From Rhodoligotrophos appendicifer (GTDB lineage: Bacteria > Pseudomonadota > Alphaproteobacteria > Rhizobiales > Im1), in contig NZ_VHKL01000005.1 of assembly GCF_007474605.1 (NCBI RefSeq), positions 124,001 to 188,000 of the forward strand: a stretch of DNA of 64,000 bases. The letters run 5' to 3'. The notes beneath the pieces were generated by a model. The model did no database searches and was not told where the DNA came from. It saw only the letters and a list, made by a program, of their open reading frames with translations. Shown here in pieces: positions 26,378-40,995 of the stretch. Position 1 is the stretch's first letter; every line of letters begins with the position of its first letter. The translations under genes were made by a program, and so were the position numbers.

Positions 26378-28453
26378 TTGACGGCGGCCGCGCCTCTGGA
26401 GAGTGAGTCTCGGCGCGTCCGACGCGTCGCCGGGATTGATGTCGGCGGCACTTATACGGATCTGGTGCTTTATGAGACGGGGTCCGGCGGCAGTTTCGTC
26501 CGCCTGGCCAAGGTGCCGACCACCTTGCCGAACCAGGCCGTAGGCGTTCTGCGCGCGATCGAGGCAGCCGGTGCGACGCCGGCCCAGCTCGACCTCATCA
26601 TCCATGGCACGACCGCGACCACCAATGCGATCCTCGAACGCAAGATCGCCGCCGTCGGCCTCATCACCACCCGCGGCTTCCGCGACGTGCTCGAACTGGG
26701 TCGACGCACCCGGCCGAACGCCTATGGCATGGTGGGTGCCTTTGAGGCCCTGGTGCCGCGCGAACGTCGCTTCGAGGTGACGGAGCGGATGCGCGTCGAC
26801 GGCACGGTGGTCGATCCGCTCGACGAAGGTCAGGTCGCGGCCGCCGCCGAACGGCTGTTGGCGCTCGGCTGCGAGAGCATCGTCGTGCATTTTCTCCATT
26901 CCTATGCGAACCCGGCCCATGAGCTGCGCGCCGGCGAGATCGTGCGCGCGCTCTGGCACAATGCCTATGTGACGCTGGGCCACGAGCTTCTGTCCGAGTT
27001 TCGCGAATATGAGCGTGGCACCACCGCCTCCGTGAACGCGGCGGTCCAGCCCATTCTCGACCGCTATATCCGGCGCCTGGCGGACGATCTGGCGGCGGGG
27101 GGCTTCACCCGTGATCTCCTGGTCATGAATGGCAATGGCGGGACCGTCACGGCCCGCCATGTGGGCCGTGAGGCTGTGAAGACGATCATGTCGGGACCGG
27201 CCTCCGGCGTCATGGCGGCGGCGGCCACCTTGCAGCAGTCGGGCCTGGCCAATGCCATCACCTATGACATGGGCGGCACCTCCACGGATGTGGCACTGAT
27301 CCATGGCGGCATCCCCGAGGTCTCCTCCGAACTTGCGATCGACTACGGCCTGCCGATTCACGTGCCGCTCGTCGATGTCCGCACCGTCGGCGCGGGAGGC
27401 GGCTCGATCGCTGCGATCAATGCCGCCGGCATGTTGCAGGTTGGCCCTGAATCGGCCGGCTCCTCGCCGGGCCCCATCGGCTATGGCCGCGGCGGCACCC
27501 GACCGACCATCACCGACGCCAATCTTCTGCTCGGCCGCCTCGATCCTGCAGCGCTCACCGCCGTCGATGCATCGACCGGGCTGGATCCGCTGCGTGAGGC
27601 CATCGACCGCGAGATCGCACGACCCCTGGGGCTTTCGCCGGAGGATGCGGCCGCCGCCATCATCCATCTCGCGAACACCCACATGGCGGGTGCGATCCGC
27701 GTGGTCTCTCTCTCCAGAGGCTTCGACCCCCGCGATTTCGTGCTGTTTGCCTTTGGCGGGGCGGGGCCCCTGCACGCGGTCGCGATCGCCCGCGAGCTCG
27801 GCCTCCCCGAGGTCCTGGTGCCGGCGCGGCCAGGACTGACCAACGCCTTGGGATGTCTTGCCGCCGATCTGCGCCAGGATTTCGTCAACACCGTCAATAT
27901 CGGCCTCGATGCGATCGACATGACGCTCGTGGCAGAGCTTCTCGGCCAGCAGCGCCGTGAGGGCGAGGCAGTGAACGGGGCCGAGCAGGACGAGATCGTC
28001 GAGACCATCGTCATCCATGGCGCGGACATGCAGTTCCGCGGTCAGACCCATCTGATCCGTGTCGCCATACCCTCACCCGACATCAGCCGCGAGGCCCTGC
28101 AGAGTGCCTTCGAGGAGGCCTATTTCGCCCGCTTCCAGGTGCGGTTGCCCGAAGTCAGGGCGGTGGTCGTAAACCTCGTGACATCGGTGATCGGCCGTCG
28201 CCGAAGCTTCCCCGTGAAGTCGCTCATCGATATCAGGAGCCGGTCGACCGCAGCGATCACGCGGCCCCTCTACGCGAGCGGCCGCTGGCATGAGGCGCGC
28301 ATCCTTGACCGCGACCAGCTCCAGCCGAGCGAGGTGATCGAGGGCCCCGCCGTCATTCAGCAATTTGACGCGACCACGGTCGTCGAGCCGGGCTCCGTCG
28401 CCACGGTCGATGCAATCGGCAATCTGCGCATCAAGGTGGGAGCATGGGCATGA
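26378..28453 (+). CDS. Hydantoinase/oxoprolinase family protein, A subunit (HyuA type)
   Basis: 691 residues, ATP-dependent hydantoinase/oxoprolinase A subunit with an actin-like fold. The N-terminus GIDVGGTYTDLVL is the phosphate-1 motif, and the segments IIHGTTATTNAILERK, TYDMGGTSTDVALI and FAFGGAGPLHAV are signature blocks. With the B subunit it opens lactam rings such as N-methylhydantoin or 5-oxoproline using ATP. The start is a TTG preceded by a perfect GGAGGA at 8 bases. The gene is coupled to the B subunit by ATGA (28450-28453). Its neighbours, a molybdenum hydroxylase and a pyridine-type reductase, suggest a cyclic lactam formed by ring reduction as substrate. Confidence 0.93.
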   Translation: MTAAAPLESESRRVRRVAGIDVGGTYTDLVLYETGSGGSFVRLAKVPTTLPNQAVGVLRAIEAAGATPAQLDLIIHGTTATTNAILERKIAAVGLITTRGFRDVLELGRRTRPNAYGMVGAFEALVPRERRFEVTERMRVDGTVVDPLDEGQVAAAAERLLALGCESIVVHFLHSYANPAHELRAGEIVRALWHNAYVTLGHELLSEFREYERGTTASVNAAVQPILDRYIRRLADDLAAGGFTRDLLVMNGNGGTVTARHVGREAVKTIMSGPASGVMAAAATLQQSGLANAITYDMGGTSTDVALIHGGIPEVSSELAIDYGLPIHVPLVDVRTVGAGGGSIAAINAAGMLQVGPESAGSSPGPIGYGRGGTRPTITDANLLLGRLDPAALTAVDASTGLDPLREAIDREIARPLGLSPEDAAAAIIHLANTHMAGAIRVVSLSRGFDPRDFVLFAFGGAGPLHAVAIARELGLPEVLVPARPGLTNALGCLAADLRQDFVNTVNIGLDAIDMTLVAELLGQQRREGEAVNGAEQDEIVETIVIHGADMQFRGQTHLIRVAIPSPDISREALQSAFEEAYFARFQVRLPEVRAVVVNLVTSVIGRRRSFPVKSLIDIRSRSTAAITRPLYASGRWHEARILDRDQLQPSEVIEGPAVIQQFDATTVVEPGSVATVDAIGNLRIKVGAWA

Positions 28454-30204
28454 GCGGCGTCGATCCTCTGACCCTGGCGGTGATCCAGGCAGGCCTCCAG
28501 CAGGTTTGCAACGAGATGGACATTGCCTTCAGCCGGTCGGCCTTCTCCCCCGTGATCGCCGAAGCGGACGACCGCTCCTCCGGCATCTATGCCCTCGAGA
28601 CCGGCGATCTGATCTCCCAGGGGGAACTGGGCCTGCCCGTCTTCGTCGGCACGATGCAGTACTCCGCTCGCGAGCTCAGCCGCAGGATTGCCGACGGCGT
28701 GACGGCAGCGCCGGAGCCGGGTGATCTCTACATCGTCAACGATCCCTATCTCGGCGGCACCCATCTGATGGATGTGCGCTTCGCCAAGCCGTTCTATTAC
28801 AAGGGCGAACTGTTCTGTTGGCTCCAGAACACCGGTCATTGGCCGGATGTCGGCGGCATGGTTCCGGGCGGCTTCTCCGCCAAGGCGACGGAGGTTGAGC
28901 AGGAGGGCTTGCGGCTGCCGCCGGTGAAGCTGTTCAAGCGCGGCGAGATGGATCGGGAGATCTATCAGATCATTTGCTCCAACATCCGCATCGCCGATCA
29001 GCGGATCGGCGATATCCGCGCTCAGGCGTCGGCTCTGGCGGTGGGCGAGACGCGGTTGACAGAGCTCTTCGACCGCTATGGTCTTGCCACCGTGACGGCC
29101 GCCATTGCCGAGATCCGAGCACGGGCGGCCCAGCTGATGCGCACCTATCTGGAGAGCATTGCCGACGGGGTCTATCATTCGGAAGCCTTCGTTGATTCCG
29201 ACGGTGTGGTGAACGAGCCGCTGCGCATCGCGCTGCGTATGACCAAGGCTGATGGCCAACTCCATTTTGATTTCGCCGGATCCTCGCCGCCCTGCCGCGG
29301 CCCGATGAACTCCGTCGTCTCCACCACTTATTCTTCCGTCTATCTGGCCATGCGCCATGTCTTTCCCGACATTCCGCTGAATGCCGGCGCCTTCGAGCCC
29401 TTGGTGATCGAGCGCCCCGAGGGGACGTTCCTGGATGCCCGCTACCCCCGTCCGGTCTCCGGCTGTGCGGCGGAAGTCTCCCAGCGCATCGCCGAAGCGG
29501 TGTTCCTGGCGCTGGTCCAGGCCATTCCGACCAAGGTGACGGCAGCACCTGCGGGCACGTCGGGCAATTTCGCGCTGGGCGGCTATGATCCCGAGCGCGG
29601 CCGCGGCTATGTCATGTACCAATTGTCGGGCGGCGGCTATGGCGGCAATGCGGACCAGGACGGCCTGACCAATGGCTGCTCCACCATCGGCATCTCCAAG
29701 ATGCCGCCGGTGGAGGTGATGGAGCAATATTACCCGGTGCTCTTCCGGCGCTTCGCCTTGCGGGAAGGGTCCGGCGGGGCAGGAGAGCACCGCGGCGGCT
29801 TCGGCGTCCATTATGAGGTTGAGCTCCTGCGGGGGGAGGCGACGGCCTCCTTCGTCATGGACCATGGCCGCTTCGGTCCCCCCGGTGTCTTGGGCGGGGA
29901 GGAGGGCGGACGCAACGAGGTGCATGTGCATCGCGAGGGCACCGTCTTCATCCCCGAGCATCTCTCCAAGGATCAGGGCATCCCCTTGCAGGCGGGCGAC
30001 CGGGTGGAGGTCAAGACCCCCGGCGGTGGCGGCTATGGCGATCCCTTGCGACGCGAATTCGGCTTGATCGAGCGCGACTTTCGCCGTGGCTACTACACGG
30101 CTGAGGAACTGCAATCCTTGTTTTCGGTGGTGATGGGCCCGGACGGCGAGGTCGACGCGCTGTCCACCGATCGCCTTCGTGGCGGCTTGAGGCAAGCGGG
30201 GTAG
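28450..30204 (+). CDS. Hydantoinase/oxoprolinase family protein, B subunit (HyuB type)
   Basis: 584 residues, HyuB. The start of the family, DPLTLAVIQAGLQQVCNEMDIAFSRSAFSPV, is present, as are PGDLYIVNDPYLGGTHLMDV, and the C-terminal GDRVEVKTPGGGGYGDPLRR, which is diagnostic of the B subunit. I chose ATG 28450, which overlaps the A-subunit stop and has GGTGGGAG 7 bases upstream; an in-frame ATG at 28444 is closer to the ribosome-binding site than is usual. It completes an ATP-dependent lactamase with HyuA. The stop is 3 bases before the molybdenum-hydroxylase FAD subunit gene. Confidence 0.94.
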   Translation: MSGVDPLTLAVIQAGLQQVCNEMDIAFSRSAFSPVIAEADDRSSGIYALETGDLISQGELGLPVFVGTMQYSARELSRRIADGVTAAPEPGDLYIVNDPYLGGTHLMDVRFAKPFYYKGELFCWLQNTGHWPDVGGMVPGGFSAKATEVEQEGLRLPPVKLFKRGEMDREIYQIICSNIRIADQRIGDIRAQASALAVGETRLTELFDRYGLATVTAAIAEIRARAAQLMRTYLESIADGVYHSEAFVDSDGVVNEPLRIALRMTKADGQLHFDFAGSSPPCRGPMNSVVSTTYSSVYLAMRHVFPDIPLNAGAFEPLVIERPEGTFLDARYPRPVSGCAAEVSQRIAEAVFLALVQAIPTKVTAAPAGTSGNFALGGYDPERGRGYVMYQLSGGGYGGNADQDGLTNGCSTIGISKMPPVEVMEQYYPVLFRRFALREGSGGAGEHRGGFGVHYEVELLRGEATASFVMDHGRFGPPGVLGGEEGGRNEVHVHREGTVFIPEHLSKDQGIPLQAGDRVEVKTPGGGGYGDPLRREFGLIERDFRRGYYTAEELQSLFSVVMGPDGEVDALSTDRLRGGLRQAG

Positions 30205-30207
30205 TCC

Positions 30208-31071
30208 ATGTTCTATGCGCGACCGAGCTCCCTGGAGGAAGCCTTGGCGATCAGGGCCGATAGGGACGTCACGGTGCTCGCCGGCGGCACCGATGTTTAT
30301 CCTGCCAAGGCAGGCCGCAATGGCTGGGGTGACATGCGTGAGGAGGGAATCCTCGACATCACGGCCGTGGACGAACTGCGCGGCATCGACGACTCTGGCG
30401 ACCATGTCCGTCTCGGCGCCTTGACCACCTGGACGCAGCTCCGCCGGCATTCACTGCCGCCAGCCTTTGCCGGGATCCAGTCGGCCGCTCGCGAGGTGGG
30501 GGGCGCCCAGATCCAGAACCGCGGCACCCTGGCCGGCAATCTCTGCACCGCATCGCCGGCGGGCGACGGCATTCCTTGCCTCCTGGCATTGGACGCCGAG
30601 ATCGAGCTGGTCTCCCGCCGCGGCACGAGGCGGGTGCCGGTCGCCGATTTCGTGACGGGTTACCGCCAGACGGCATGCGCCGCCGACGAGCTCGTGACTG
30701 CCATCCTGGTTCCGAAGCCCGAGCCTGCCGCAAGGGCGCGCTTTCTGAAGCTCGGGGCCCGGCGGTATCTGGTGATTTCCATCGTCATGGCGTCAGCGGT
30801 GATCGCGCCGGACGGCCACGGTGTGATTTCGAACGCGCGCATTGCCATCGGCGCCTGTTCTGCCATGGCAAAACGCCTGCCGGATCTGGAAGCCGCTCTT
30901 CGCGGCTGTCATGTGTCGGAGGCGGCGGAGATCGCTGCAGCCTCCCACCTGCAGGTCCTGTCGCCCATCGACGACATCCGTGCCAGTGGCGCCTTCCGCA
31001 GCCATGCGGCGCTAATAGTGCTGCGCGATCTGCTGGGCTCTCTGGCCCCCACCGAGGCGAGGGCGGCATGA
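30208..31071 (+). CDS. Molybdenum hydroxylase (xanthine dehydrogenase family) FAD-binding subunit
   Basis: 287-residue medium subunit, CoxM/XdhB type. The FAD-binding motifs are VLAGGTDVYPAK (about residues 24-35) and QNRGTLAGNLCTASPAGD (about 102-120), followed by the CO-dehydrogenase flavoprotein C-terminal domain. It transfers electrons from the iron-sulfur centres to an acceptor. It is coupled by ATGA (31068-31071) to a gene in which the iron-sulfur and molybdenum subunits are fused, so the enzyme would be a two-polypeptide complex. The substrate (an aromatic N-heterocycle or aldehyde) is not determined by this subunit. Confidence 0.93.
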   Translation: MFYARPSSLEEALAIRADRDVTVLAGGTDVYPAKAGRNGWGDMREEGILDITAVDELRGIDDSGDHVRLGALTTWTQLRRHSLPPAFAGIQSAAREVGGAQIQNRGTLAGNLCTASPAGDGIPCLLALDAEIELVSRRGTRRVPVADFVTGYRQTACAADELVTAILVPKPEPAARARFLKLGARRYLVISIVMASAVIAPDGHGVISNARIAIGACSAMAKRLPDLEAALRGCHVSEAAEIAAASHLQVLSPIDDIRASGAFRSHAALIVLRDLLGSLAPTEARAA

Positions 31072-33833
31072 GACACGAGACCCTGGCGAAAACCGACGAG
31101 AGGGTTGTCAGCTTCTCCGTCAATGGCCAGCGCCGGGAGGTGAGCGCACGGCCCTTCACCACGCTCGCCTCGACTTTGCGTGATGGACTTGGGCTGACCG
31201 GCACGAAGATCGGCTGTGACGCCGGCGATTGCGGGGCCTGTACGGTGATCGTGAATGGCGAGCAGGCCTGTGCCTGCCTCATTCCCATAGCCCAGCTCGA
31301 AGGCGCCGAGATCCACACGGTGGAGGGCGAAGGCCCGGGCGGCCTGACGGAAACGCTGCGTCAGGCGTTTCTCAGCCACGGCGCCGCCCAATGCGGGATC
31401 TGCACCCCGGGAATGCTGATGGCGGCAGCCGACTGCCTGTCGCACGAGCCCAAGGCGAGTCGTGAGCGGATCGAGGATGCCCTCGGTGGCGTTCTGTGCC
31501 GCTGTACGGGTTATGTGAAAATAATCGAGGCAGTCGAAGAGGTTGCGAGCGGAACCTGCAATCGCTCCTTGCCGAATGACGGCGGCGTGGGGTCACGTCT
31601 GGTGCGCCGGGATGGACATGCCAAGGTCACGGGTGCGGATCTCTTCGGCGCCGATGCGGCTCCCGACGGCGCCTTGTGGATGCGCGTCATCCGCTCTCCC
31701 CATGCCCGGGCCGGCTTCCGCTTCGGCGACCTCGATGCCGTCGTGGCGGCGACCCCCGGTCTGGAGGTGATCCTGACGGCGGCGAACGTGCCGGGCGAGA
31801 ACGCCTTCGGCATCTTTCCCAATCTCAAGGACCAGCCCGTCTTCGCCGAGACCCATGTCCGCTTCCGCGGCGAGGCCGTGGCGGCGTTGGTCGGCGAACG
31901 GCGGGTGATCGAGGCGATCTCGGATCGCGACATACCCATCGAATGGCTGCCTCTGCCGCCGACCAGCGGCGTGGCGGCGGCACTCAGCCCGGGCGCTCCG
32001 GTCCTGCATGAGCGCTTTCCCGATAATGTGCTGGCGCGTGGCCACCTGCGCACAGGTGATGTTGCGCACGGCCATGGCCAGGCCGCAGCAACGGTCGAAG
32101 GTCGCTTTGCCACGGGCTTCGTCGAGCACGCCTATATTGAGCCGGAGGCGGGATTTGCCGTGGCGACGGGCGATCGGGTGGAGGTGACCGCCTGTACCCA
32201 GGCCCCTTACATGGATCTGGACGAGACGGCCCGCGTCCTCGGCGTCGATCATTCCAAGGTCCGGATCATTCCGACGGCCTGCGGCGGAGGCTTTGGCGGC
32301 AAGCTCGACGTCTCGGTGCAGCCGCTGCTGGCGGTGGCGGCCCGCGTCACCGGCCGGCCGGTCCGCATCGTCTACAGCCGCACTGAATCCATGGCCTCGA
32401 CCACAAAGCGGCATCCGTCGCAGATCTGGGCCAAGGCTTCCGCCGATGCCCAGGGCCGGTTGACGGCATACGAGCTCGACGGCGACTTCAACACCGGCGC
32501 CTATGCCTCCTGGGGGTCGACGGTCGCCAACCGCGTGCCGGTCCACGGCACCGGTCCCTATGTCGTGCCGAATGTCTGGAACCGGACCCGCGCGGTCTAC
32601 ACCAATGACACGCCTGCGGGCGCCTTCCGGGGCTTCGGCGTGCCCCAGGCGGCGATCGCCAACGAGACGCTGATGGATGATCTGGCGGGCGCGCTCGACA
32701 TTGATCGCTGGCACATCCGCCGGATCAATGCGATCGGCCATGGCGACGTCACGCCGTCGGGCCAGCGTCTCGATCATTCCGCCGGCCTGCCTGAATGCCT
32801 CGATGCCCTGAAGCCTGACTGGGATGCAGCGCTGGTGCAGACCGCAGCGTTCAACGAGACCGCCACGCGCCGCAAGCGCGGTGTCGGCATCGCCTGCATG
32901 TGGTATGGCTGCGGCAACACCTCGGTGTCGAACCCGTCATCCATGCGCATCACGCTTTCACGCGAGGGGCGGCTGATCTTCTATAACGGGGCCGTCGATA
33001 TCGGCCAGGGCTCGACGACGATCCTGCTCCAGATTGCCTCGGAGGCATTAGGCCTGCGTCCGGAATGCTTCGAGATGGTGATCGGTGATACCGACCGCAC
33101 CCTGGACGCGGGCAAGACCTCGGCCTCGCGCCAGACTTTCGTGTCCGGCAACGCGACCCGCCTGGCCGCCGAGGATCTAAGGCGCAAGATCTTGGGGCTG
33201 GCCAATGCCGGTCCTGAGGCGCGCCTCACGCTGCAGGGGAGGGAACTCTCGGTCCTCGACGGGGAAGCCTCACGCCGCATCGATCTCGCGAGCCTCGTCG
33301 CGGATGCCTCAGGCATCGTCCTGGAGGGCTTCGGCGCTTATGACCCGCCGACCAGCCCGCTGGACGCGGACGGCCAGGGAGTGCCCTATGCGACCTATGG
33401 CTTTGCGGCCCAGATGGCGGAGGTCGAGGTCGACACCGCCCTCGCGACGGTGAAGGTGCTGCGCATCGTCGCCGCTCATGATGTCGGCCGCGCCATCAAT
33501 CCGACCTTGGTCGAAGGTCAGATCCATGGCGGCATCGCGCAAGGACTGGGCCTTGCCTTGATGGAGGAATATATCCCCGGCCGCACCGAGAACCTGCATG
33601 ATTACCTGATCCCGACGGTGGGCGACATGCCGGCCATCAAGACCATCCTGGTGGAGGATGCCGATCCCGAGGGCCCCTATGGCGCCAAGGGGGTCGGCGA
33701 GCCGGCCCTGGTGGCGACGGCCCCGGCGATTCTGGGTGCGATCCGCCATGCCACGGGCGTTCGGATGACGCGCGTGCCGGTGCTGCCGCATCGGCTCTGG
33801 GAAGCATTGCAGCAAGGCGAGGTGACATCATGA
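31068..33833 (+). CDS. Molybdenum hydroxylase, fused [2Fe-2S] and molybdopterin-binding subunit
   Basis: 921 residues. The N-terminal part (about 1-165) is the [2Fe-2S] subunit with ligands C50, C55, C58, C70 for the plant-ferredoxin-type cluster and C109, C112, C144, C146 for the second cluster. A short linker leads to the molybdenum subunit (about 175-921), including GGGFGGKLD, GAFRGFGVPQ, and the active-site Glu at E878 (GVGEPAL). Most relatives have these as separate genes; fusion occurs in some lineages. It should hydroxylate an N-heterocycle next to the ring nitrogen, for example nicotinate to 6-hydroxynicotinate. An open frame continues upstream into the FAD-subunit gene; I chose ATG 31068 because it gives the normal N-terminus. 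Confidence 0.92.
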   Translation: MRHETLAKTDERVVSFSVNGQRREVSARPFTTLASTLRDGLGLTGTKIGCDAGDCGACTVIVNGEQACACLIPIAQLEGAEIHTVEGEGPGGLTETLRQAFLSHGAAQCGICTPGMLMAAADCLSHEPKASRERIEDALGGVLCRCTGYVKIIEAVEEVASGTCNRSLPNDGGVGSRLVRRDGHAKVTGADLFGADAAPDGALWMRVIRSPHARAGFRFGDLDAVVAATPGLEVILTAANVPGENAFGIFPNLKDQPVFAETHVRFRGEAVAALVGERRVIEAISDRDIPIEWLPLPPTSGVAAALSPGAPVLHERFPDNVLARGHLRTGDVAHGHGQAAATVEGRFATGFVEHAYIEPEAGFAVATGDRVEVTACTQAPYMDLDETARVLGVDHSKVRIIPTACGGGFGGKLDVSVQPLLAVAARVTGRPVRIVYSRTESMASTTKRHPSQIWAKASADAQGRLTAYELDGDFNTGAYASWGSTVANRVPVHGTGPYVVPNVWNRTRAVYTNDTPAGAFRGFGVPQAAIANETLMDDLAGALDIDRWHIRRINAIGHGDVTPSGQRLDHSAGLPECLDALKPDWDAALVQTAAFNETATRRKRGVGIACMWYGCGNTSVSNPSSMRITLSREGRLIFYNGAVDIGQGSTTILLQIASEALGLRPECFEMVIGDTDRTLDAGKTSASRQTFVSGNATRLAAEDLRRKILGLANAGPEARLTLQGRELSVLDGEASRRIDLASLVADASGIVLEGFGAYDPPTSPLDADGQGVPYATYGFAAQMAEVEVDTALATVKVLRIVAAHDVGRAINPTLVEGQIHGGIAQGLGLALMEEYIPGRTENLHDYLIPTVGDMPAIKTILVEDADPEGPYGAKGVGEPALVATAPAILGAIRHATGVRMTRVPVLPHRLWEALQQGEVTS

Positions 33834-35338
33834 GCATCGCCGATCAACTCTCGATCGAGGCGCGGTCGCGGAAGTTCGGGGCCTCCGAAGGCGACGGCAT
33901 CGTTCGCTGTGACGCATGCCCGATCCTCTGTCGAATCCGTCCCGGCCGCCAGGGCGCCTGCGCCCGCTATGCCAATGAAGGCGGCCATCTCATCCGGGTC
34001 GATCCGGTGGTCCTGATGGAACGCACTTTGGAAGGCGAGGGCAAGCTTGTCGCCTTTGCCGGCGGCACCTGGGATGGGCATCCGCTGGATCCCTCGCGCA
34101 CCTTCGTCACCGGCATCGGCGCCGGCACCACCTATCCCGACTATAAGCCCGCCCCCTTCATCGTCTCATCCGAACATGAGGGGGTGGACACCGTGACCGT
34201 CGTTACCGAAGGGATCTTCAGCTATTGCGGCGTCAAGGTGAAGATCGATACCGACCGCCATCTCGGTCCCGAGACGGCGGCGATCCGCGTCGACGGCGAA
34301 CAGGTGGGCCATGTCACCACGGCCGAATACGGCTCCCAGATGCTGTCCATCGGCGGTGTCCGCCATTTGACGGGTGGCTCGAAGAAGGAGGGCCGCGTCA
34401 CCTGCGAGACCATGCTCCAGCTCTGCGCCGGTGCCCCTGTGACCATGACCATCGATGGCGGCCATGAGGTGGTCGTCGAAGCCGGCCGCCCGCCTGTGGT
34501 GGACGGCAAGCCCGAGCAGCGGATGCGCGTCGGCTGCGGCTCGGCGACCGTGGGCATCTTCGCCCAGCAATGGTTCGGCCATGTGGACGAGGTGATCGTG
34601 CTCGATGACCACATTACCGGCGTGTTGACGGAGCACCAGGCCGGTCGGGTGCTGGAAATGCCCCATGCGGGCATCGGCGTGCGCGGGCGGAGATCGACCC
34701 CGGGACGGTATTTTCAGGTCGCCAATCCAGGTCTCGGCTGGGGCGGTACCGACATCACCGACCCCCTGTCGGTCATCCAGAAGATCGACCCCAAATATGC
34801 CTGGCCTGGCCTGCGCTTGCTCCTGACCTCGACCACCGGTGAGGACGCGCTCTATTGTGTGCTCGACGAAAATCTCGTGCCGGTGCCCGCCGAAATTCCG
34901 GAGCCGGTGCGCAAGGTGGTCGACCGCATCGGCGAGAACTGTGAGCCTTCGCTGTCCACGGTCCTGTTCATGGCGGGGGCGGGAGGTTCCCTCCGTGCCG
35001 GCGTCACGGAGGATCCCGTGCGCCTCACCCGTTCGGTCGCCAAGGGCGAGACGAAGGTCTCCATGGGCGGTGCCCCGGTCTATGTCTGGCCGGGCGGCGG
35101 CATCACGGTCATGGTCGACGTGACCCGCATGCCGAAGGGCTCCTTCGGCTATGTTCCGACCCCGGCCCTCGTGGCGCCGATCGAATTCACCTTGCCGCGG
35201 AGCCTCTATCTGGCACTGGGCGGACACGGAGGCGACATCGTCTCAGCCAGTGATCTCCTGGCGGCACTTCCGCCCGAGACGCGGATCGACCCCTGGCCGG
35301 AGCGCAATCCCTGGCCGTTCGGGCGCTCCGCCTCATGA
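33830..35338 (+). CDS. 6-hydroxynicotinate reductase-like iron-sulfur protein
   Basis: 502 residues. Four cysteines near the N-terminus, C27, C30, C34 and C44, in a CxxCxxxCx9C arrangement, suit an Fe-S cluster. The remainder matches, to my recognition, proteins annotated as 6-hydroxynicotinate reductase, the ferredoxin-type enzyme of nicotinate fermentation that reduces 6-hydroxynicotinate to 1,4,5,6-tetrahydro-6-oxonicotinate. Conserved blocks include SSEHEGVDTVTVVTEG, MRVGCGSATVGIFAQQW and VYVWPGGGITVMVDV. The gene overlaps the hydroxylase gene and the MarR gene by four bases each. The family assignment comes from recollection, not a search; other roles for this poorly studied family are possible. 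Confidence 0.68.
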   Translation: MSIADQLSIEARSRKFGASEGDGIVRCDACPILCRIRPGRQGACARYANEGGHLIRVDPVVLMERTLEGEGKLVAFAGGTWDGHPLDPSRTFVTGIGAGTTYPDYKPAPFIVSSEHEGVDTVTVVTEGIFSYCGVKVKIDTDRHLGPETAAIRVDGEQVGHVTTAEYGSQMLSIGGVRHLTGGSKKEGRVTCETMLQLCAGAPVTMTIDGGHEVVVEAGRPPVVDGKPEQRMRVGCGSATVGIFAQQWFGHVDEVIVLDDHITGVLTEHQAGRVLEMPHAGIGVRGRRSTPGRYFQVANPGLGWGGTDITDPLSVIQKIDPKYAWPGLRLLLTSTTGEDALYCVLDENLVPVPAEIPEPVRKVVDRIGENCEPSLSTVLFMAGAGGSLRAGVTEDPVRLTRSVAKGETKVSMGGAPVYVWPGGGITVMVDVTRMPKGSFGYVPTPALVAPIEFTLPRSLYLALGGHGGDIVSASDLLAALPPETRIDPWPERNPWPFGRSAS

Positions 35339-35793
35339 ACCGCCCGGCACAGGCGCGCAAGCCGGAGCTTTCACCGGCCGATGCCTACCGGCTGGAGGAT
35401 CAGGTGGGCTTCGTCATCCGCCGCGTGCACCAGCGGGCGACCGGCATCTTCAACGAGGTGATGGCCGAGTTCGGGGTGACGCCGACGCAGCTTGCTGCCC
35501 TCGCCAAGCTTCATGACGTCGGCAGCGTGTCGCAAAACGAGCTGGGCCGCCTGACGGCCATGGATCCCGCGACCATTGCCGGGGTGGTGAGCCGCCTCGT
35601 CAAGCGGGGCTTCGTGGTCGCCTCCGCCGATGCCAGCGACGGCCGGCTTCTGATTCTGGAGCTCACGCCGGAGGGGCACCAGGCGATACTGGCCATGAAG
35701 GCGGTGGGCGCAGACGTCTCGCTGAGGACGCTCGAGCCCTTGACCGCTACAGAGTCGCAGATGTTGCTGACCCTCCTGCGCAAGCTGGAATAG
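35335..35793 (+). CDS. MarR-family transcriptional regulator
   Basis: 152 residues, winged helix-turn-helix of the MarR family. The recognition region is SQNELGRLTAMDPATIAGVVSRLVKRGFV (about residues 65-95) with the wing VASADASDGRLLILELTPEGHQ. The flanking helices form the dimer interface. The gene is inside the operon, coupled to the reductase gene by ATGA and followed 3 bases later by the UPF0280 gene. MarR proteins usually bind small aromatic ligands, which fits control by a pyridine-type intermediate; a candidate operator is the palindrome at 26321-26336. Confidence 0.92.
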   Translation: MNRPAQARKPELSPADAYRLEDQVGFVIRRVHQRATGIFNEVMAEFGVTPTQLAALAKLHDVGSVSQNELGRLTAMDPATIAGVVSRLVKRGFVVASADASDGRLLILELTPEGHQAILAMKAVGADVSLRTLEPLTATESQMLLTLLRKLE

Positions 35794-35796
35794 GAG

Positions 35797-36666
35797 ATGG
35801 TCTTTCCGCCCCCGACGATCCAGGGCCTCTCCGGTGACCGCCTGCATCTGTCGCAAGGACCCATCGATGTCGTGCTGAAGGCCGAGGGCGAGAGGGAGGC
35901 CGTGCAATGCGCCTATGCCGCCGGGGTGGATCGGTTTTCCACGATCCTGGCCGAACTCTGTGCCGAGTTGCCAGTCTTGCGACGGGCTCACGGTACAGGT
36001 CCCCGCCCGCAGAGCCCCGTGGGGCGCCGGATGGCGGCGGCGTGCGATCCCTTTGCCGATGTCTTTCTCACGCCCATGGCGGCGGTGGCCGGTGCGGTGG
36101 CCGATGAAGTGTTGGAGGTCATGCGGGCAGCGGCCCCTCTCACCCGTGCCTATGTGAACGATGGCGGCGACATCGCGCTCTTCTGCGCACCCGGTGAGAG
36201 CGTGCGCCTCGGCATTGCCGGCGATTTCAGCCGATCCGGCATCCCTTCGATCAACGGTGCTCTCGACCTTCGCCACGAATATGGCATCGGCGGTGTCGCG
36301 ACCTCCGGCGCCAGGGGACGGTCCCTGTCTTTGGGCATTGCCGACAGCGTGACCGTGCTCGCAGCAGACGCCGCCACAGCCGATGTGGCAGCGACCCTGA
36401 TTGCCAACGCCGTCGATCTGGATCACGCGGAAATCGAGCGCCGGCCGGCGGTGGAGCTCGATCCTGACAGCGATCTTGGCACGCGGCTGGTGACGGTCCA
36501 TGTCCCGCCGCTGGATCGGCATCTCGTCAAACGGGCCTTGGAGTGCGGAGTTGAGCGAGCGCACGAGCTCGAGCGTCGCGGCCTGATCCTCGCTGCAGCA
36601 ATGATGTTGCAGGGCGAGGTCGCGAGCCTTGGACCTTTGCCCGCCCTCCGGCAGATGGCCTCGTAA
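35797..36666 (+). CDS. UPF0280 (ApbE-like fold) protein
   Basis: 289 residues matching the UPF0280 family, related in fold to ApbE, the FAD:protein FMN transferase. Landmarks are SPVGRRMAAACDPFADVFLTPMAAVAGAVADEV (about 75-105), AYVNDGGDIALF (about 120), GVATSGARGRSLSLGIADSVTVLA (about 175-200) and DLGTRLVTVHV. Biochemical function of the family is not established. It ends the operon, immediately after the MarR gene, so it may help mature or assist the Fe-S or flavin enzymes of the pathway; this is inference. The adjacent gene, pncA, is convergent. Confidence 0.8.
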   Translation: MVFPPPTIQGLSGDRLHLSQGPIDVVLKAEGEREAVQCAYAAGVDRFSTILAELCAELPVLRRAHGTGPRPQSPVGRRMAAACDPFADVFLTPMAAVAGAVADEVLEVMRAAAPLTRAYVNDGGDIALFCAPGESVRLGIAGDFSRSGIPSINGALDLRHEYGIGGVATSGARGRSLSLGIADSVTVLAADAATADVAATLIANAVDLDHAEIERRPAVELDPDSDLGTRLVTVHVPPLDRHLVKRALECGVERAHELERRGLILAAAMMLQGEVASLGPLPALRQMAS

Positions 36667-36686: not shown

Positions 36687-37316
36687 TTAGACGGTCGAGA
36701 TATCGACCAGCGCGACCCCGGCATCGCGCATCTGGCGCTCGGCCTCCGAAAGCGATCCGTTGAGATCGATATGCCGGCAGGCATTCATCGCAACCGTCGT
36801 CTTGAACCCGAGCCGGGCAGCATCCAGCGCCGAATAGGCGACGCAGAAATCCGTGGCGAGGCCGGTCAACAGGAGCTCCGTCAAGCCCCGCTCATGCAGA
36901 TAGCCTGCTAGCCCGGTGGTCGTCTTGTGGTCGTTCTCGAAAAAGGCCGAATAGCTGTCCACGTGCTTGCGCGAGCCCTTGCGGATGATGACTTGCGCCT
37001 CCTGATGCAGGAGTTCCTCGTGGAACTCGGCGCCTGGGGTGCCTTGCACGCAATGGTCCGGCCACAGGGTCTGCGGGCCGTAATGCATCTCATGGGTGGA
37101 GAAGGGATCCGCCCCCGGCTGGGTCGATGCAAAGCTCGAATGATCCGCCGGATGCCAATCTTGTGTGAGCACCACATTGTCGAAGTTGCGAATCAGCCGG
37201 TTGATCGGATCGATCACCTCGTGGCCGGCCGGAACGGCGAGTGCGCCGCCGGGGCAGAAATCATTCTGCACATCGATGACGATCAGGGCCGTGGTCTCGG
37301 GAGTGAAGCGTCTCAT
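36687..37316 (-). CDS. pncA: Nicotinamidase
   Basis: 209 residues, isochorismatase-like fold, deaminating nicotinamide to nicotinate. Catalytic residues are D15 (VIDVQNDF), K113 (IRKGSRKHVDSYS) and C158 (TDFCVAYS). The metal site D53, H55, H59 is in DWHPADHSSF. Length and motifs match bacterial PncA. It lies convergent to the UPF0280 gene, with 20 bases between the stops. It may serve NAD salvage generally, but its position beside a nicotinate-ring-type degradation operon makes it a possible feeder for that pathway. Confidence 0.94.
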   Translation of the reverse strand: MRRFTPETTALIVIDVQNDFCPGGALAVPAGHEVIDPINRLIRNFDNVVLTQDWHPADHSSFASTQPGADPFSTHEMHYGPQTLWPDHCVQGTPGAEFHEELLHQEAQVIIRKGSRKHVDSYSAFFENDHKTTTGLAGYLHERGLTELLLTGLATDFCVAYSALDAARLGFKTTVAMNACRHIDLNGSLSEAERQMRDAGVALVDISTV

Positions 37317-38771: not shown

Positions 38772-39758
38772 TCACACCGCAACGGCGACCACGGCGAGAC
38801 AGTCTCCGGTCTTCACCAGGCCCGGATAATGCCGCCCGGCGAGGATGCCGGTCAGGGAGGACAGATAAGGCGTGGAAACAACGCCGGTCCGCGCCGTGGA
38901 GTGGATCCGGGCGATCATCTGGCCGGCCTGGATGGGATCGCCGAGATCGACGCAGAACTCCACCATGCCGTCATCCTGGGCGAAGGTGAAGCAGCCGTCG
39001 GGCATGTCGAGGAGGACCGTGTCTGAGCGCTCGATCTCGCCCGTCAGGATGCCGGCATGGATAAGCAGGTTGCGCACCCCGCGCTTGGCGACCCCGGCGG
39101 AACGCGCCGTCGACGTACCACCGCCACGCAACTCCGTGGTGACGAAGGTCTTGCCCATCTCTTCGGCCGCCGTGTCATACATCCCCACTGCATCGATTTC
39201 GACCATGCGCATGCTGTAGGGCGCGTTGAACGCGGTCATGGCAGCCATGCAGGCCGCCTCCTGGTCTTTGTCGGGCAGGATATGGGCGGCTGCGAAGGGT
39301 ACGAAATCGAGCGTCTTGCCGCCTGAATGGAAGTCGAGGACGATGTCGGCCATGGGCAGGAGGTAGCGCTGGAAATAATCCGCGATCTTCTCCGTGACCG
39401 TCCCGTCCGGCCGCCCCGGAAAGGAGCGGTTCATGTTGCCCTTGTCGATGGGCGATGTCCGCGTTCCCGCCTGGAAGGCCGGATAGTTGAAGGCGGGCAC
39501 GATGATGATGCGCCCCGAGACCTGCTCCGGCGTCACGCTGGCTGCCAGGTCGTAGAGGGCGATCGGTCCCTCATATTCGTCCCCGTGATTGGCGCCGGTG
39601 AGCAGGGCCGTTGGCCCTGCCCCCCGCTTGATCACGCAGATCGGGATCATCACCGAGCCCCAGGCCGAATCGTCGCGGGAATAGGGCAGGCGCAGATGGC
39701 CATGCTGAATGCCATCGGCCTCGAAATCGACGCCCGCGGCGATCGGATTGGCTTTCAT
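38772..39758 (-). CDS. doeB: N-acetyl-diaminobutyrate deacetylase of ectoine degradation
   Basis: 328 residues of the succinylglutamate desuccinylase/aspartoacylase (M14) group. Zinc ligands H58 and E61 are in GANHGDEYEGP and a later His is in DFHSGG. The start HLRLPYSRDDSAWGSVMIP and the family length match DoeB, which deacetylates N-acetyl-L-2,4-diaminobutyrate made from ectoine. It follows doeA by 10 bases, the standard pair. I chose ATG 39758, 7 bases after a GAGGA. Without doeA, sequence alone would give only an aspartoacylase-type deacylase. Confidence 0.87.
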   Translation of the reverse strand: MKANPIAAGVDFEADGIQHGHLRLPYSRDDSAWGSVMIPICVIKRGAGPTALLTGANHGDEYEGPIALYDLAASVTPEQVSGRIIIVPAFNYPAFQAGTRTSPIDKGNMNRSFPGRPDGTVTEKIADYFQRYLLPMADIVLDFHSGGKTLDFVPFAAAHILPDKDQEAACMAAMTAFNAPYSMRMVEIDAVGMYDTAAEEMGKTFVTTELRGGGTSTARSAGVAKRGVRNLLIHAGILTGEIERSDTVLLDMPDGCFTFAQDDGMVEFCVDLGDPIQAGQMIARIHSTARTGVVSTPYLSSLTGILAGRHYPGLVKTGDCLAVVAVAV

Positions 39759-39768
39759 GGAGCTGTCC

Positions 39769-40950
39769 TCAGGCCTTGACGAAGAGCTTGCGCGGCGTCT
39801 TGCACAGGGTTTCGCAGCCGGTCTCGGTAATGAGGAACGGCTCGGTGATCTCGATCCCCCCGTCATCGAGCCAGAGGGCCGGCATGAAATGGAAGATCAT
39901 GCCCGGCTTCAGCTCGGACATGTCGCCCGGACGCAGGCTCATGGTGCGCTCGCCCCAGTCCGGCGGATAGGACAGACCGATGGAGTAGCCCACGCGGCTC
40001 TCCTTGTCGAAGCCGTGCCGTCTCAGCGTGTCATAAAAGGCCTTGGCGATGTCCTCGCAGCGATTGCCCGGCTTGGCGGCGCCCAGCCCGGCTTCGGTCG
40101 CCTCCAGCACGGCGGCCTCGGCATCGAGATATTTCTGTGGCGCCTTGCCGAGGAACACCGTGCGCGACTGCGGGCACTGGTAGCGCTTATAAGCCCCGGC
40201 GATCTCGAAGAAGGTCCCTTCGCCGGACTTCATCGGCTTGTCGTTCCAGGTCAGATGCGGTGCGGTCGCCTCCATGCCCGACGGCAGCATCGGCACGATG
40301 GCCGGATAATCGCCGCCATGGCCGTCGGCGCCGATGATCCCGGTCTTGTAGATCTCGGCCACCAGCTCGTTCTTTTTCATGCCGGGCTCGATCACCTCGA
40401 CGATGCGGGCATGCATCGTCTCCACGATCCGGGCGGCGCGGCGCATATACTCGATTTCGCGCGGGCTCTTGATGGAGCGCTGCCAGTTGACCAGGCCGTT
40501 GGCATCCTTGAAGGTCGCGCCCTTCAGATGCTGCGTGAGCGAAGCATAGGCAGCGGCGGTGAAATAATAATTGTCCATCTCCACGCCGATGGTGCCTTTG
40601 GCCCAGCCGCGTTCCTCGATCAGTCCCGACAGGTGGTCCATCGGATGCCGCTCGGTGGATTGCACATAGATGTCGGGATAGCCGACGATGTTGGCATGAT
40701 CCAGGAACACCGTGAGCTTGGCGCCGAAGGAATCCATGAAGCGGCCCCACCAGACCGGCTCGCCCTCGCGGCTGAGCAGCACGGCCTGATGGACGTAGAA
40801 GGACCAGCCGTCATAGCCGGTCAGCCAGCTCATGTTGGAGGGATCGGTGACGATCATCAGATCGATGCCGGCCTTCTCCATGGCCGCACGCGTCTTGGCG
40901 ATCCGAGCCTCATACTCGGATCTGTCGAAATTGAGTTCAACCACGCCCAT
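39769..40950 (-). CDS. doeA: Ectoine hydrolase (M24 fold)
   Basis: 393-residue pita-bread protein related to creatinase and prolidase. The N-terminal domain contains MSWLTGYDGWSFYVHQAVLL, characteristic of DoeA, and the C-terminal M24 domain from about residue 165 includes GADGHGGDYPAI and GYSIGLSYPPDWGE. Several metal ligands of typical M24 peptidases are replaced (for example FEIAGAYKRY where an Asp is expected), as in creatinase and ectoine hydrolase. It hydrolyses ectoine to acetyl-diaminobutyrate. The GGGGAG is 8 bases before ATG 40950; a longer start at 40995 is less likely. The Rid-family gene upstream ends 45 bases away. Confidence 0.88.
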   Translation of the reverse strand: MGVVELNFDRSEYEARIAKTRAAMEKAGIDLMIVTDPSNMSWLTGYDGWSFYVHQAVLLSREGEPVWWGRFMDSFGAKLTVFLDHANIVGYPDIYVQSTERHPMDHLSGLIEERGWAKGTIGVEMDNYYFTAAAYASLTQHLKGATFKDANGLVNWQRSIKSPREIEYMRRAARIVETMHARIVEVIEPGMKKNELVAEIYKTGIIGADGHGGDYPAIVPMLPSGMEATAPHLTWNDKPMKSGEGTFFEIAGAYKRYQCPQSRTVFLGKAPQKYLDAEAAVLEATEAGLGAAKPGNRCEDIAKAFYDTLRRHGFDKESRVGYSIGLSYPPDWGERTMSLRPGDMSELKPGMIFHFMPALWLDDGGIEITEPFLITETGCETLCKTPRKLFVKA

Positions 40951-40995
40951 TCTTGTACTCCCCTTGATGAATCGCGAGTCGGGACTGGAGGCCAT

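Follow-up and report, generated by a model that had tools for sequence, protein, structure and literature searches.

A UPF0280 protein of ApbE-like fold as the constant partner, and probable maturation enzyme, of a 6-hydroxynicotinate reductase-type protein

Downstream of the gene for a 6-hydroxynicotinate reductase-type protein (Hnr; 502 residues; 33830..35338, plus strand) in Rhodoligotrophos appendicifer lies a gene for a UPF0280 protein (289 residues; 35797..36666, plus strand), and UPF0280 is the most constant partner of Hnr found in the genomes, named loci and plasmids surveyed here. Both genes belong to a stretch of 64,000 nucleotides (contig NZ_VHKL01000005.1, positions 124,001 to 188,000), called the window, whose numbering is used throughout. 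The reductase was assigned from its open reading frame (ORF), an alignment and annotated plasmid homologues, and the UPF0280 protein from NCBIfam model NF003322 (PRK04334; 365.8 bits, cut-off 290) and structure comparison. We consider it likely that UPF0280 is a dedicated maturation enzyme of Hnr. That it matures Hnr most likely by flavin attachment, as a divergent flavin transferase, is a more tentative reading, whose chances we would place just short of even. A preliminary description of the window had put the reductase, a MarR-family regulator and UPF0280 in one operon, with genes overlapped or 3 bases apart, and the ORF coordinates bear this out: the MarR gene, between hnr and the UPF0280 gene (35335..35793, plus strand; ORF, Pfam), overlaps the end of the Hnr ORF by 4 bases, and the UPF0280 gene begins 3 bases past MarR.

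Constancy of the Hnr-UPF0280 pair

Among 289 genomes of the window's class, strong matches to Hnr (E below 1e-100) and to UPF0280 (E 1.1e-39 or lower) fell in the identical 44 genomes, which span 28 families, and no genome had one alone. These counts exclude five genomes with a short N-terminal Hnr match alone and four with a weak UPF0280 match. The curated UPF0280 cut-off was passed in 42 of the 44; in the other two, G067 and G090, the match was split by a contig break, and the UPF0280 piece adjoining Hnr was taken for the distance count. In 299 genomes sampled from the phylum, again leaving out five with a short N-terminal Hnr match alone and one with a weak UPF0280 match, the two proteins likewise occurred in identical genomes, 21 in number. 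The two samples overlap, and the union of their positive genomes is 61. The Fisher p for co-occurrence was 4e-53, relatedness ignored. Whether UPF0280 genes track reductase genes across genomes had been proposed as a check in the preliminary description, and in both samples they do.

The pair was also constant in its arrangement. In 43 of the 44 class genomes the two matches lay on one contig and one strand with UPF0280 downstream of Hnr, while in G234 they were on separate contigs. Match ends were no more than 300 bases apart in 42 class pairs, and 477 bases apart in the window's own pair, with MarR between. One Hnr match, at G031:C1:2969781-2971264, ran in two frames (residues 12-253 and 248-500) with a full UPF0280 behind it, reflecting a frameshift or an assembly error.

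Eighty named Hnr loci, the best 80 of 582 relatives, with labels nearly all proteobacterial (the others are one Mesoflavibacter and one "Bacterium HR40"), gave the same picture. A same-strand UPF0280, in some cases truncated at the contig end, was present in 79, and in the 80th, L131, the contig stops no more than 70 bases from the Hnr ORF. The gap between the two genes, estimated from tblastn ends, had a median of 12 bases and was 200 bases or less in 64 of the 79; in the other 15 it was greater, with a maximum of 4,778 (L097). Other partners came and went: the fused molybdenum (Mo) hydroxylase subunit was found in 74 of the 80 loci, PF06684 in 51, HyuB in 24 and an amidohydrolase in 16, all lower bounds, as flanks of at most 6 kb were searched with one query per partner. 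A MarR gene stood between hnr and the UPF0280 gene in 12 of the 80, and MarR is outside the conserved pair.

We regard the constant pairing as established, and infer that Hnr is what UPF0280 acts on. That the two are merely co-transcribed neighbors in a pathway, with no direct functional tie, is highly improbable: both genes do belong to one catabolic operon, but they keep to the same genomes in both samples and to the same plasmids while other neighbors vary. UPF0280 might instead be a working part of the pathway, either an Hnr subunit or an enzyme acting on the Hnr product, for example in a nucleotide-activating or ring-opening step. The constancy of UPF0280 is what one would expect of a subunit, and UPF0280 distances correlate with Hnr distances (r = 0.68 for 96 pairs, a value reached in none of 1000 permutations), a correlation that shared ancestry alone would also raise. 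However, the candidate ring-opening genes vary between loci while UPF0280 stays, so that UPF0280 does not follow the fate of the product; further, its fold and kept residues, described below, indicate a transferase, and its relatives elsewhere serve another enzyme. We judge a working pathway part to be quite unlikely.

Plasmids extended the pairing. In 72,556 plasmid records Hnr was found in 26 and UPF0280 in 27, and all 26 Hnr plasmids carry both. The 27th UPF0280 plasmid, Hydrogenophaga pBPS33-1 (L136), has four UPF0280 matches, two of them in the stretch examined, where they sit in repeated blocks with Rieske oxygenase genes, transporter genes and IS1071. At the one junction read, a frame containing PPIEFSMTMADYLDFGGHSDQVFSVDAAL, which resembles the Hnr C-terminus, follows the IS1071 transposase gene and directly precedes UPF0280. 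Given this remnant at IS1071, the UPF0280 copy at the examined junction appears to be what is left of an Hnr pair that the insertion sequence disrupted. On other plasmids, proteins annotated as "amino acid synthesis family" come right after UPF0280 (L137:14272-14853 and L138:14290-15455), with PF06684 confirmed for L138:14290. Viral relatives of Hnr and UPF0280 were sought and none were found.

Fold and conserved residues of UPF0280

The AlphaFold2 model of the window's UPF0280 protein had a mean predicted local distance difference test score (pLDDT) of 94.3. Its top structural match was 2o34 (DVU1097 of Desulfovibrio; Z 20.0), and a profile comparison with DVU1097 gave E 1.3e-12. Rows 2-20 of the structural matches were all ApbE, Ftp and FmnB flavin transferases (Z 14.0-16.4 over 201-221 residues, root-mean-square deviation 3.1-3.6), followed by the next fold, that of urate oxidase, at Z 7.8. 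The ApbE fold claimed for UPF0280 in the preliminary description is thus upheld. In searches with Pfam, which has an ApbE family (PF02424), the window's protein matched no family up to E 10, while 32 of 57 aligned UPF0280 members matched ApbE, with a best E of 1.1e-5. The alignment comprises 57 of 75 representatives. No signal peptide or lipobox was seen in UPF0280 on inspection by eye.

In a profile comparison with hhalign, UPF0280 aligned to an ApbE profile at E 5e-6 and probability 86, with the VN.GGD strand, the TSG turn and the ADxxAT helix in register; the ApbE profile was built from 7 of 19 loci picked by motif, the motif filter having given nothing in the other 12. The UPF0280 segment VNDGGD (residues 120-125; 36154..36171, plus strand) is the counterpart of the ApbE xxGG[D/E] strand, with N121 and D125 in 57/57 members. 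The segment TSGARGRSLS (residues 169-178; 36301..36330, plus strand) holds the TS pair and, by counting, the Arg of ApbE, and lacks ApbE's subsequent His segment. The segment DVAAT (residues 196-200; 36382..36396, plus strand) is the counterpart of the Mg2+ ligands of ApbE, with D196 in 57/57 and Thr or Ser at 200 in 57/57. S170 and Thr or Ser at 169 are also kept in all 57 members, and R175 in 55. In FmnB, the metal and diphosphate residues are described as Asp301, Thr305, Ser257, Thr256, Asn216 and Arg262 (PMC8906456). By hhalign, these correspond to D196, T200, S170, T169, N121 and R175 of UPF0280, the Arg again by counting from the TSG turn. The fold and the kept residues are, like the pairing, established, and in these two respects, same fold and metal/diphosphate residues kept by alignment, UPF0280 is like ApbE, FmnB and Ftp (PF02424).

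A diverged relative of UPF0280 adjoins a class I methyltransferase in two further loci (L132:5982-6773 and L133:2855-3607), with weak NF003322 matches and, for L133, an hhalign E of 2e-9. In the L133 copy Lys and His replace the metal-site Asp and Thr by alignment, so that this relative may lack catalytic activity and have a partner of a third kind.

Hnr and the nature of its maturation

The window's Hnr matched no Pfam or NCBIfam model at E 0.001. Its homologues on the 26 plasmids are 60-80% identical to it; a feature is annotated for 20 of them, under the name 6-hydroxynicotinate reductase in 17 cases. The Hnr of strain SG-6C is described as 42% identical to the 6-hydroxynicotinate reductase of Eubacterium barkeri (PMC3511419), which is a homologue within the Hnr family from an anaerobic organism, unlike the window's host. 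In an alignment of 46 of 59 representatives, eight Cys are invariant (residues 27, 30, 34, 44, 133, 192, 236 and 371). The first four form an N-terminal CxxCxxxCx9C motif (residues 27-44; 33908..33961, plus strand), each invariant in 46/46, and are probable ligands of an iron-sulfur (Fe-S) cluster. Residues 100-111, TTYPDYKPAPFI (34127..34162, plus strand), are 12 consecutive invariant residues in the 46 sequences. The AlphaFold2 model of Hnr was middling (pLDDT 81.5, predicted template modeling score 0.69), so a fold may have been missed; residues 84-106, overlapping TTYPDYKPAPFI, were below pLDDT 50. Invariance together with low model confidence fits a segment that is ordered by a cofactor, and T100 or T101 is perhaps the site of cofactor attachment; many further Ser and Thr are likewise invariant in the alignment.

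None of 998 PDB chains aligned to the Hnr model reached Z 5. The top rows showed a weak likeness of residues 134-220 to the C-terminal barrel of GcvT (Z 4.1), and Pfam GCV_T_C matched all 46 Hnr members, with a best E of 0.0002. Homology of Hnr to DUF39 was also considered, on account of collinear-looking motifs, and the tests run give no support for it: PF01837 was not among the matches of the 46 Hnr sequences up to E 10, and a comparison of the Hnr profile, which is shallow, with a DUF39-like proxy, a single sequence, scored 14.4 against a mean of 16.0 for 60 shuffles.

The reading that we favor, in which UPF0280 flavinylates Hnr, would run as follows. UPF0280, with its ApbE fold and kept metal/diphosphate site, would be needed for active Hnr. 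In a metal-dependent reaction it would transfer a flavin nucleotide from flavin adenine dinucleotide (FAD) to a conserved Ser or Thr of Hnr, T100 or T101 perhaps, and its catalytic base would not be the His of ApbE. The purified Hnr of E. barkeri reportedly contains covalently bound flavin and Fe-S clusters. Canonical ApbE was matched in 82 of the 289 class genomes; of the 44 Hnr genomes, 23 have it and 21, a few of them incomplete, have none. In those 21, any flavinylation of Hnr would have to come from an agent other than ordinary ApbE.

Several points weigh against flavin attachment. The argument for a covalent flavin on Hnr would come from one distant homologue, that of E. barkeri. ApbE is commoner in Hnr genomes than in the others (23/44 vs 59/245, p 0.0004 ignoring relatedness), so that ApbE itself could be the agent in some of them. 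Of the 46 Hnr sequences, none contains D..[ST]G[AS][TS], the acceptor motif of ApbE, and one contains the shorter [ST]GA[TS]. In ApbE, H257 is needed for transfer and not for FAD binding (PMC5655446), and its equivalent in FmnB is His273 (PMC8906456). The segment with this catalytic His is a gap in UPF0280, and the 57 members have no His column there. FmnB Asp184 and Lys190 contact the ribose and the flavin (PMC8906456), and in UPF0280 they correspond, by hhalign and with residue numbers that we assigned, to Thr and to Ala or a gap. Thus UPF0280 is unlike ApbE, FmnB and Ftp in being without the catalytic His segment, in its altered flavin and ribose contacts, and in having a partner without the acceptor motif. 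Judged from the alignments, the phosphate chemistry looks to be kept and the flavin pocket and the base look to be changed, and this counts seriously against an unmodified ApbE reaction; a similar point is made, with reference to earlier work, by Price et al. (PMC5764234). In sum, the proposal of the preliminary description that UPF0280 installs or modifies a flavin stands in part: the ApbE fold, the kept residues and the constant pairing speak for it, and the missing catalytic His and the absence of the acceptor motif from all 46 Hnr sequences speak against it.

The remaining point against flavin attachment comes from relatives of UPF0280 in other organisms. We take UPF0280 to be COG2122, the family that includes MA1715 and DvMF_0044; the UPF0280 model had matches, below its cut-off, in Methanocaldococcus jannaschii and Methanosarcina acetivorans, which fits this identity, as does the match to 2o34. 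DUF39 enzymes, which COG2122 proteins serve elsewhere, are to our knowledge not known as flavoproteins. In D. vulgaris, COG2122 is required with DUF39 and a NIL/ferredoxin protein for homocysteine synthesis, and fitness across 170 experiments showed a correlation of r = 0.98 (Price et al. 2018, PMC5764234). A proposal by Rauch et al., as cited there, is that COG2122 may act in persulfide modification, and a 2025 paper terms MA1715 a sulfur trafficking protein (PMC12068725). The preliminary description's "family of unknown role" accordingly needs correcting. The window's UPF0280 is of the same family as DVU1097 (2o34) and in this is like the COG2122 proteins of Desulfovibrio and methanogens; they differ in partner, which is DUF39 with NIL/ferredoxin in those organisms and Hnr here. 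DUF39 had no match in 398 genomes of Pseudomonadota, the phylum of the window, so that UPF0280 has a different partner there, and none was found among plasmids and viral contigs. For UPF0280/COG2122, the portions of the literature consulted offer a structure and a genetic phenotype and report no biochemical activity; no report of an Hnr-UPF0280 link was found in the limited literature searched.

The main rival explanation follows from this work: UPF0280 would be a sulfur-handling maturation factor, delivering sulfur or persulfide to Hnr or helping to build its Fe-S clusters, as proposed for COG2122 and DUF39 in methanogens. The genetic tie to DUF39, the description of MA1715, the eight invariant Cys of Hnr and the missing ApbE His would all accord with such a role. 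On the other hand, no Cys is invariant or nearly so in the 57 UPF0280 sequences, which makes a conserved persulfide on UPF0280 unlikely; the residues that UPF0280 does keep belong to a site for metal-bound diphosphate; and with DUF39 in 0/398 phylum genomes, UPF0280 is not serving DUF39 there. We regard a sulfur-handling role as unlikely.

Pathway setting and meaning of the pair

The genes upstream of hnr, all on the plus strand, point to the pathway that Hnr serves. The fused 2Fe-2S and molybdopterin subunit of a Mo hydroxylase (31068..33833; Pfam, and neighbors of the named loci) was given its start at the ATG at 31068, the ORF list having 30576, and its end overlaps the Hnr start by 4 bases. 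Before it lie the FAD subunit of the hydroxylase (30208..31071; Pfam) and relatives of the caprolactamase alpha and beta subunits, a HyuA-like protein (26378..28453) and a HyuB-like protein (28444..30204), whose NCBIfam scores of 462.9 and 323.2 bits are under the cut-off of 1000. On the minus strand, convergent with the UPF0280 gene, is a nicotinamidase gene (36687..37316; NCBIfam NF008623, 223.2 bits, cut-off 174), and ectoine degradation genes (DoeB, DoeA) come next on that strand (38772-40995). In locus L092 a nicotinamidase lies between hnr and the UPF0280 gene. The nicotinamidase beside the window's locus and that of L092 point to nicotinate as substrate.

We infer a route in which the Mo hydroxylase would hydroxylate an N-heteroaromatic acid, of which nicotinate is the likeliest, after which Hnr would reduce the ring and the HyuAB relatives would probably open the resulting lactam in this window. 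An opening of the lactam that depends on ATP would here replace the amidohydrolase, or enamidase-like, route, and a scan of 19 neighboring proteins in the window showed no amidohydrolase. The window differs from the nicotinate clusters of Azorhizobium, Bradyrhizobium and SG-6C (PMC3511419) in that HyuAB-type genes precede the Mo hydroxylase and Hnr; UPF0280 is presumably among the genes of those clusters. HyuA and HyuB accompany the Mo hydroxylase and Hnr in the window (26378-30204), and an amidohydrolase or PF06684 does so elsewhere, as though the modules for ring opening could be swapped while the reductase stays.

In a broader reading, the cofactor transferases of ApbE fold would have a second branch, UPF0280/COG2122, whose catalytic apparatus and acceptor sequence are its own and of which one clade matures Hnr and another the DUF39 homocysteine synthase. 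We hold this to be somewhat unlikely. If true, it would unite the two seemingly unrelated roles of the family under a single biochemical one, cofactor attachment, and would predict that DUF39 enzymes carry a covalent cofactor not seen to date.

The tie between UPF0280 and Hnr, exceptionless in the genomes sampled, makes the function of UPF0280 a two-protein experiment, and the pair is a clean system in which to settle the question of flavin versus sulfur. If UPF0280 attaches flavin, the ApbE rules, that is, the His base and the S/TGAT acceptor, are not the sole route to such bonds. If it does otherwise, the maturation of Hnr would reveal its role and could serve as a test of the sulfur trafficking proposed in methanogens and sulfate reducers. 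Expression of Hnr for pyridine reduction may need the UPF0280 gene.

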